From Actinoplanes lobatus (GTDB lineage Bacteria; Actinomycetota; Actinomycetes; Mycobacteriales; Micromonosporaceae), in the NCBI RefSeq assembly GCF_014205215.1, contig NZ_JACHNC010000001.1, forward strand, positions 2,795,001-2,859,000: DNA of 64,000 bases, read 5' to 3'. The notes under the pieces were generated by a model. It ran no database searches, had not been told where the DNA came from, and saw only the letters and a list, made by a program, of their open reading frames with translations. Shown here piece by piece: positions 59,867 to 61,376 of this stretch. The translations under genes and the position numbers were made by a program. The stretch's first letter is position 1, and each line of letters starts with the position of its first letter.

Positions 59867-60577
59867 GTGCCTGAGTACGACGACGAGACCGCGCAGTTTG
59901 CTGACGAGCAGTCGTCGCTGGAGACCGAAGAGCCGGTCGAGGCCGCCGAGCCGGTCGAGGCTCAGGCGCCCGAGGCTGACGAGGACTACGACCCGGTCAA
60001 GGAGCTGCGGCAGAAGCTGCGCTACGCCCCCGGCGACTGGTATGTCGTGCACTCCTACGCGGGCTACGAGAACAAGGTCAAGACCAACCTCGAGACCCGG
60101 ATCACGAGCCTCGACATGGAGGAGTTCATCTTCCAGGTCGAGGTGCCGACCCGCGAAGAGGTCGAGGTCAAGAACGGCAAGCGCAACCAGGTGCAGGCCA
60201 AGGTCTTCCCCGGCTACATCCTGGTCCGGATGGACCTGAGCCCGGAGTCCTACTCCTGCGTGCGCAACACGCCCGGTGTGACCGGCTTCGTGGGCGCCAC
60301 CGACCGGGTCGACCGGCCGGCCCCGCTCTCCCTCGACGAGGTGCTGAAGTGGCTGGCCCCGGCTGTCCAGGCCGAGGAGAAGAAGGCGAAGCCCGAGGTC
60401 AAGGTGCTCGACTTCGAGGTGGGCGACTCGGTCACGGTGACCGACGGCGCGTTCGCCTCGCTGCCGGCCTCGATCAGCGAGATCAACGCCGACCAGCAGA
60501 AGCTCAAGGTCCTGGTGTCGATCTTCGGCCGGGAGACCCCGGTCGAGCTGAACTTCAACCAGGTCACCAAGATCTGA
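59867..60577 (+). CDS. nusG: Transcription termination/antitermination factor NusG
   Basis: 236 residues from GTG 59867. An acidic N-terminal extension of about 55 residues, then the NGN domain ([22 protein letters not shown]) and C-terminal KOW domain ([24 protein letters not shown]). It contacts RNA polymerase, Rho and S10. Instead of rplK, rplA follows after 79 bp. Confidence 0.96.
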
Positions 60578-60631
60578 TCGCCGGATCCCCGGCGATATCA
60601 GTGGGAGGGGCCGCGCATCCGAAGCGGCCCC
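60577..60631 (+). promoter_or_regulatory. Two hairpins between nusG and rplA (rplK absent)
   Basis: ATCGCCGG/CCGGCGAT at 60577-60596 (4-base loop) and GGGGCCGC/GCGGCCCC at 60607-60631 (9-base loop). They could form an attenuator or an L1-binding leader for rplA. No T-run follows either. Confidence 0.55.
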
Positions 60632-60656
60632 GCCATCTACCACAGGAGTAAGTGAA

Positions 60657-61376
60657 ATGGCACAGCGCAGCAAGGTGTACCGCGCCGCCGTCGAGAAGAT
60701 CGACGTCAACAAGCTCTACGAGCCGAAGGACGCGGTCGTCCTCGCCAAGGAGACCGGCTCCGCCAAGTTCGACGCCACCGTCGAGGTCGCGATGCGCCTC
60801 GGTGTCGACCCGCGTAAGGCCGACCAGATGGTCCGCGGCACCGTCAACCTGCCGCACGGCACCGGTAAGACCGCCCGCGTCATCGTGTTCGCCCAGGGCG
60901 CGAAGGCCGAGGAGGCCGTCGCGGCCGGCGCCGACGAGGTCGGCACCGACGAGCTCGTCGCCCGGATCCAGGGTGGCTGGCTGGACTTCGACGCCGCGAT
61001 CGCGACGCCGGACCAGATGGCCAAGATCGGCCGGATCGCCCGGATCCTCGGCCCGCGTGGCCTCATGCCGAACCCGAAGACCGGCACCGTGACCATGGAC
61101 GTCACCAAGGCCGTCAACGAGATCAAGGGCGGCAAGATCACCTTCCGGGTGGACAAGCACTCCAACCTGCACCTGATCATCGGCAAGGCGTCCTTCTCGC
61201 CGGAGCAGCTGATCGACAACTACGGCGCGGTCCTCGACGAGGTCCTGCGCTCGAAGCCGTCCGCCGCCAAGGGCAAGTACCTGAAGAAGGTCACCATCAC
61301 CACCACGATGGGCCCCGGCATCCAGGTCGACCCGAACGTGCACAAGAACCTGCGCGGCTCGGACGCCACCGCCTGA
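60657..61376 (+). CDS. rplA: 50S ribosomal protein L1
   Basis: 239 residues with AGGAG upstream. Family motifs: [34 protein letters not shown], and [16 protein letters not shown]. It binds 23S rRNA at the L1 stalk and often its own mRNA leader. In nearly all bacteria it follows rplK, which is not here. Confidence 0.97.

Follow-up and report, generated by a model that had tools for sequence, protein, structure and literature searches.

We find that Actinoplanes lobatus has no rplK between nusG and rplA, although the gene order secE-nusG-rplK-rplA is a widely conserved landmark, and that the only L11 gene of its genome, located 1.1 Mb from rplA, encodes a deeply divergent type of the protein, which we name uL11-D here. 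L11 is located at the centre of the ribosome where the factors bind. In Actinoplanes and its sampled relatives this core part of the ribosome appears to have been exchanged permanently. Our preferred reading, to which we assign a probability of roughly 0.7, is that a drug-inducible alternative L11 became constitutive and displaced the native rplK both in the Actinoplanes lineage and among some Pseudonocardiaceae.

The window (the whole stretch of DNA analysed, 64,000 nucleotides, G000:C1:2795001-2859000) belongs to an A. lobatus genome of 10.4 Mb, assembled in two contigs and listed as 100% complete. The junction comprises the following features, in window positions:

59867-60577, plus strand: nusG, upstream neighbour of the gap (NCBIfam TIGR00922, 198.3 bits)
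60578-60656, plus strand: spacer at the expected rplK site, 79 bp between nusG and rplA
60578-60595, plus strand: first hairpin, TCGCCGG-ATCC-CCGGCGA, read in the sequence
60601-60648, plus strand: retained rplA leader element, GTGGGAGG..hairpin..CCACAGGAG, with the hairpin stem at 60607-60614 and 60624-60631
60657-61376, plus strand: rplA (L1 by NCBIfam), downstream neighbour of the gap

The spacer holds two inverted repeats (60578-60595 and 60607-60631), and no L11 reading frame is present among the ORFs of its 79 bp; coordinates, gap, hairpins and missing frame all agree with a preliminary description of this DNA, which had reported rplK missing from the junction, two hairpins and no coding remnant. 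The comparison with related genomes that it proposed gave the same picture: L11 is absent from all 30 nusG-rplA junctions read from the genus, A. lobatus included (30 delivered as loci out of the 60 genus genomes searched), with gaps of 60-135 bp. In other genera of the family we chose 25 junctions, and rplK is at its standard place in 24 of them; the exception is one genome (G087) without rplK. For 19 of these 24 relatives keeping rplK, the rplK-rplA spacer contains GTGGGAG ahead of rplA, followed by a hairpin and mostly then by CCACAGGAG; this GTGGGAG-hairpin-CCACAGGAG element is the one that fills the Actinoplanes nusG-rplA gap, which suggests that rplK was deleted together with the region upstream of it and that the rplA leader was left intact. 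Ribosomal protein L1 binds or acts on such rplA leaders.

Profile searches of the whole A. lobatus genome returned one match each for PF00298 and PF03946, both in a single gene (each search was positive in 14 of 14 control genomes):

G000:C1:3975325-3975750 (L003:9326-9751), outside the window: uL11-D gene, 141 aa, assigned by its PF00298 and PF03946 matches

This gene excludes a loss of L11, which the preliminary description had considered: it scores above both Pfam cut-offs (51.6 vs. 32.9 bits for PF03946, and 90.5 vs. 21.4 bits for PF00298). It falls below the cut-off of the NCBIfam equivalog TIGR01632 (133.7 vs. 141.85 bits), and by that score would be at most a divergent member of bacterial uL11; by position, too, it departs from uL11, lying outside the nusG-rplK-rplA cluster. 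An AlphaFold2 model (mean pLDDT 75.2) has the two-domain L11 fold, with a best TM score of 0.88 to a ribosomal L11 chain, and native L11 and uL11-D align well over the C-terminal RNA-binding domain. The neighbouring genes read as those of UvrB, a TerC-like protein and BipA (by eye), and of a lytic transglycosylase and a ClpP-like protein (by Pfam). The last of these, a ClpP-family protein (PF00574) at L003:9781-10470 on the minus strand, adjoins uL11-D and apparently lacks the catalytic serine and histidine, as judged by eye. We considered it as a partner of uL11-D; since the catalytic pattern seems to be missing, and since the adjacent ClpP lies on the opposite side of uL11-D in one Allokutzneria genome, the adjacency is treated as chance.

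The divergence of uL11-D includes the region that contacts thiopeptides. Native actinobacterial L11 has the motif (T/N)PAPP(V/I)GxALG, and the A. lobatus uL11-D has NAAMV-DLGKMLG, with the prolines gone, one residue deleted and a lysine at the last proline. The pattern PxPP[VI]G is found in 0 of 110 D-types vs. 59 of 67 native-type genes, and all 110 D-types contain GKxL; the scanned stretch has no proline in any of the 73 sole copies, and 14 of the 37 accessory D-types (those beside a native-type L11) retain one somewhere. The proline-rich L11 helix is reported to contact thiostrepton, and the substitutions P22S, P23L and G25V to have made Bacillus megaterium resistant (PMC9769715); according to a review, L11 mutations left thiostrepton binding in place in one study (PMC3917276). 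Because the N-terminal domain of uL11-D is without the proline-rich thiopeptide surface, ribosomes with uL11-D should bind such drugs poorly, and uL11-D may confer drug resistance. The link to thiopeptide-type antibiotics hinted at in the preliminary description is plausible; the L11 loss (relC) to which it had been tied is not supported.

We also observed an L11 with NPASVGQALG at the native nusG-rplA place in eight loci (L292, L295, L296, L298, L299, L300, L303, and L304, from genomes G725, G704, G744, G777, G791, G632, G675, and G761). This motif is shorter and has lost the double proline, the rest of the protein being native-like; this is apparently another change of the thiopeptide-contact motif.

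Each of the 60 genus genomes has one L11 match, which is uL11-D (86-100% identity), and one rplA, and in all 60 the L11 gene is either over 1 Mb from rplA or on a different contig (match lists compared by eye). Being the sole L11 in 60 of 60 genomes, uL11-D is likely present in the Actinoplanes ribosome. Named organisms with uL11-D include Actinoplanes, Paractinoplanes, Winogradskya, Couchioplanes, Pseudosporangium, and Spirilliplanes. A survey of 200 genomes of the family (198 with a match) identified a lone D-type in 36 genomes of the genus and in G087, and two L11s, a D-type at 55-71% identity and a native-type, in 16 genomes; the remaining 147 comprise two without a match, one (G121) with a weak partial match only, and others with one match of lower identity, which we take from that lower identity to be the native type (sequences were read for 24 junctions). 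The D-type is the sole L11 in Allokutzneria, Actinoalloteichus, Sciscionella, and Herbihabitans (7 genomes), as well as in Spirilliplanes, and two L11s are found in Planosporangium, Stackebrandtia, Microtetraspora, and Phytoactinopolyspora. Among 200 genomes of the Pseudonocardiaceae (the family of Allokutzneria), 12 have a lone D-type at an identity of at least 64%, and 41 have two matches, with the D-type read only where loci were given. None of the 12 with sole uL11-D has rplK at nusG-rplA (gaps of 76-186 bp); given these junctions and the sole D-type in a second family, native rplK has been lost in at least two families. In a class-wide survey 386 of 394 genomes matched, and among the matches listed only A. 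lobatus, G463, and G421 have clear D-types.

We built a tree of 108 sequences (143 columns; Actinoplanes-group rows thinned from 56 to 15; bootstrap unsettled and long branches flagged, L228 among them), in which the 41 actinobacterial D-types form one clade (100/100, stem 1.18) apart from native L11. Native Micromonosporaceae L11 form their own clade (100/99), and one Bacilli row (L066), a D-type by the motif rule, is placed among other phyla. One D subclade (99/89) unites the sole copies of Actinoplanes, the sole copies of Pseudonocardiaceae and an operator-free accessory copy from Planosporangium, so that transfer between families is possible; the confinement of operator absence (see below) and sole status to one D subclade suggests few events rather than many. 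Judged by tree and distribution, uL11-D in Actinoplanes is a replacement of native rplK, not a moved ancestral gene.

Upstream of accessory uL11-D genes we found sequences like TTGACcCTCCAGttaCTGGAGttccTAGCGT, and most of these copies have a MerR-type promoter whose 19-bp spacer holds CTCCAG-N3-CTGGAG. We compared the upstreams of 193 distinct genes (identical protein-plus-upstream pairs counted once; 83 native-type, other phyla included) using an operator pattern composed from the accessory promoters, so that its presence there is by construction and the weight lies on controls and second sites: at least 16 of 19 letters match in 29 of 37 accessory upstreams (15 of them perfect). This score is reached by none of the 12 sole Pseudonocardiaceae genes, by 2 of the 61 sole genes of the Actinoplanes group and by none of the 83 native-type genes, whose best score is 14; shuffled upstreams score at most 15. 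TTGA at -35, 19 nucleotides and TA at -10 are found in 32 of the 37 accessory promoters; among the 35 with a TTGA -35, 24 have the start codon 6-8 bases past -10, and accessory uL11-D transcripts are apparently often leaderless. MerR-regulated promoters have a dyad in a 19-20-bp spacer, and those with a shortened spacer are unresponsive (PMC9909328). By strict patterns, the 37 accessory upstreams divide into 21 with the CCAG form, 7 with ACG..CGT half sites, which resemble the printed tipA, mta and skgA probes (PMC7762955), and 9 with neither exactly.

Scanning 52 genomes at up to one mismatch, we detected the operator in 32 of 37 genomes with accessory uL11-D, 3 of 7 with sole uL11-D, and 1 of 8 without uL11-D; at this threshold there is none in A. 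lobatus, nor in the other five accessory genomes. Accessory genomes gave 64 hits (palindromes counted on both strands), and the reversed pattern gave 12. Since the pattern was derived from uL11-D promoters, hits there were to be expected, and the other sites are an independent finding. Among 26 loci around second operator sites (a selection from all scan sites), 18 contain a MerR-family gene of one family, with the operator beginning about 20-40 bases before the homology-based start, and 5, from five genomes, have the operator 37-38 bases ahead of a stand-alone TipAS protein; the remaining sites are two uL11-D loci alone and one ahead of another ORF. Three of the five TipAS proteins match PF07739 at 1e-43 to 1e-44, and the other two are 81-89% identical to one of them. 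Two ORFs of about 300 aa that resemble each other (MTITVLDT..) start 38 bases past a uL11-D-type operator in two genomes (L334:1501-2400 and L353:4270-5249).

The main uL11-D-associated MerR regulator has the DNA-binding domain PF13411 (1.7e-18) and an operator in a 19-20-bp spacer, both as in the MerR family, and in Microtetraspora its gene adjoins uL11-D. Its C-domain gave a single, weak TipAS match (E 0.01, under the cut-off) and no PDB match by profile, the 25 most frequent families in 54 homologues of the regulator do not include TipAS, and the matches listed in PDB fold searches cover the DNA-binding part alone; a TipAS identity of the C-domain is therefore not established. The regulator is also present in a genome without uL11-D (G082), and so must have other uses. 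For one locus, L228, we identified a regulator of the complete TipA class (MerR plus TipAS domains):

L228:1495-1917, minus strand: uL11-D, divergent from the TipA-type regulator
L228:2035-2814, plus strand: TipA-type regulator (MerR_1 1.3e-17, TipAS 9.7e-27)

The PDB relatives of this regulator are SkgA (8.1e-28) and TipA (2mbz, 2.8e-13), and the 117-bp gap between the two genes contains a TipA-like site for each. Two side observations concern the surroundings of these systems. Some accessory uL11-D genes are followed or overlapped by a small same-strand ORF with CGNR zinc-finger features (L186:8026-8412, L198:7926-8384, and L337:816-1235), and one of the three scanned (L198) passed the CGNR Pfam cut-off. 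G028, of the Actinoplanes group, has two MerR proteins (L356:2869-3744 and L358:2751-3623) that are 48-52% identical to the uL11-D-associated regulator; both genes are beside operator-like sites, and the sole uL11-D of this genome is without an operator, so control of L11 may have been lost while the regulator itself persisted.

Sole uL11-D genes appear to have no such operator, an ordinary-looking promoter and housekeeping-like codon usage. The Actinoplanes-group upstreams of sole copies share a conserved TACACT; many also have TTGACC..TAAGGT, the two parts being 18 bases apart. C/(C+G) at four-fold sites is 0.63 in sole Actinoplanes, 0.67 in sole Pseudonocardiaceae and 0.66 in native-type genes, vs. 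0.57 in accessory copies (Mann-Whitney against accessory, p = 4e-8, 2e-5, and 1e-8, respectively; sole Actinoplanes against native-type, p = 0.03; other phyla were set aside and the p values ignore relatedness). Nine of 61 Actinoplanes promoters score 15-16 of 19 for the operator, vs. 1 of 193 shuffled upstreams at 15; this possible relic is suggestive only, because part of the score is the ordinary -35 box. A strongly conserved uL11-D leader was observed at L005:4890-5003 and at the same place in 24 other Actinoplanes-group loci, with the sequence GTCGTGTGT..GCTGGCGAGCTGC..GCAGCTCACC..AAGGAGC. None of its 10 predicted pairs has a two-sided change among the 25 sequences, so we do not claim an RNA structure in this leader.

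On our preferred reading, uL11-D would have started as an accessory, drug-inducible L11 in genomes that also had a native-type L11, with promoters of the MerR/TipA type. A MerR-class protein would sense a thiopeptide or a drug like the TipA ligands and switch on its own gene together with uL11-D and, in some genomes, the gene of a TipAS drug-binding protein; uL11-D would then be built into newly made 50S subunits, leaving the drug without its proline-rich contact. Under constant exposure the promoter may have become unregulated and the native rplK dispensable, after which rplK and its upstream region would have been deleted from secE-nusG-rplK-rplA, with the rplA leader left and the unlinked uL11-D taking over. 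A wider proposal, for and against which we see about equal chances, is that of a drug-sensing ribosome swap in actinobacteria: MerR/TipA-type sensors would induce a drug-blind L11, at times with TipAS and often leaderless, and the Actinoplanes group and several Pseudonocardiaceae would have become locked on, lost rplK, and be living on the emergency form.

A different account accepts the replacement and supposes that uL11-D was kept for another molecule of the GTPase centre, for an altered stringent response, or as a neutral swap. L11 has functions for Rel and EF-G as well, the main MerR regulator has a C-domain that reaches TipAS only at that sub-threshold E of 0.01 and has no PDB match, and one weakly supported operator target is an ORF of no assigned family, all of which would suit a role apart from thiopeptides. 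We nevertheless consider such a role rather unlikely, since it is exactly the proline-rich thiopeptide-contact motif (for the contact, PMC9769715) that is lost in 110 of 110 D-types, and since the operator or its TipA-class form is common to uL11-D and TipAS proteins. Thiopeptides could also matter in another way, if uL11-D were part of a thiopeptide biosynthetic cluster in each host and served as self-immunity of the producer, as TclQ does (PMC12724294); Actinoplanes philippinensis indeed makes the thiopeptide philipimycin (PMC11406533, PMC3917276). This seems improbable in view of the neighbours in A. lobatus (uvrB, BipA, lytic transglycosylase and ClpP-like, mostly by eye), of the varied places of the accessory copies, with no thiopeptide cluster seen beside them or beside the A. 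lobatus gene (again mostly by eye), and of the presence of uL11-D in all 60 genus genomes, which is more than a rare cluster would explain.

The preliminary description had also allowed that L11 moved elsewhere. On such an account the ancestral rplK would have been relocated and then diverged fast, without takeover by a paralogue. A single L11 elsewhere in the genome fits this, and rapid divergence is able to mimic an old clade; but the L11 found here is of a divergent clade of its own, members of which occur together with native-type L11 elsewhere (16 of 200 family genomes), the coexisting D-types join the Actinoplanes gene at 100/100 with the stem of 1.18, and sole D-types are found in a second family too, so that plain relocation is already largely refuted and has very little credit left. 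For an assembly or annotation artefact at the junction, the former raised in the same description, we found no point in favour, and its chance is close to nil: the junction is alike in 30 of 30 genomes read, a lone remote L11 recurs in 60 of 60, and the Pfam L11 searches succeeded in every one of the 14 controls.

Several known systems resemble parts of this picture. TclQ, encoded in a thiopeptide cluster, is a paralogue of L11 in which a proline of the proline-rich motif is replaced by threonine; like uL11-D, TclQ/TclT (of the micrococcin P1/thiocillin clusters) are second L11s altered in this N-terminal motif, and they are proposed to replace native L11 and to shield the ribosome from the thiopeptide, as we suggest for uL11-D (PMC12724294). 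As described there, TclQ has the proline-to-threonine change, lies in a biosynthetic cluster and leaves the native L11 retained, whereas in uL11-D the entire motif is gone, and its gene mostly stands alone, has MerR/TipA-type operators and in some lineages encodes the sole L11. The TipA class consists of autoregulated MerR proteins with a TipAS domain, whose -35/-10 promoters have a long spacer containing a dyad (PMC7762955); uL11-D is like it in the complete TipA-type regulator facing uL11-D in L228 and in the five genomes with TipAS under the uL11-D operator, and unlike it in that the commoner uL11-D-associated MerR has the CTCCAG-N3-CTGGAG operator and a C-domain whose TipAS match is below the cut-off. 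A ribosomal protein as target is not mentioned in the accessible part of that source (PMC7762955). Zur-controlled alternative ribosomal proteins are, as we propose for uL11-D, stress-expressed paralogues able to stand in for the primary ones, but there the signal is zinc shortage and the proteins are zinc-free forms (PMC5912738); here the operator is of MerR type, L11 is the protein concerned, and some lineages no longer have the primary gene. In the WblC/WhiB7 response of Streptomyces coelicolor, antibiotics induce paralogues of translation genes, and ribosome-associated proteins change (PMC7157823); its regulator is unrelated, and the term L11 is absent from that paper. A psi-footprinting paper used rplK as a resistance indicator gene and marked Actinoplanes friuliensis minus for it (PMC9290621). 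The preliminary description had envisaged a known relocation in close relatives; relatives do share the rplK-less state, but we found no description of a replaced rplK in Actinoplanes, or of a MerR-controlled L11, in the open-access papers searched, and novelty is provisional because most subscription papers were outside the search.

If true, this lineage-wide replacement would show how a conditional ribosome variant turns permanent, its origin apparently being a resistance paralogue. It predicts that Actinoplanes is naturally insensitive to thiostrepton-type drugs, which is relevant where these drugs or tipA promoters are laboratory tools. The combination of operator, uL11-D and TipAS provides a sequence tag for new antibiotic-sensing systems, and the inducible swapping of a ribosomal protein becomes testable in culturable soil bacteria that are non-pathogenic.

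We also checked for a compensating change in the L11 site of 23S rRNA, using 58 E. coli bases that we take to represent this site and to place A1067 and A1095; both adenines are unaltered in the four full 23S copies of A. lobatus, and this candidate was rejected. Two further rRNA segments were observed: an rRNA operon across the first kilobases of a contig, with an interrupted 23S (L362:1-2576), and a 5′-truncated 23S plus 5S copy inside the chromosome (L363:4473-6398, G000:C1:5142472 onward), which is 99.4% identical to a full operon over 2084 bases.
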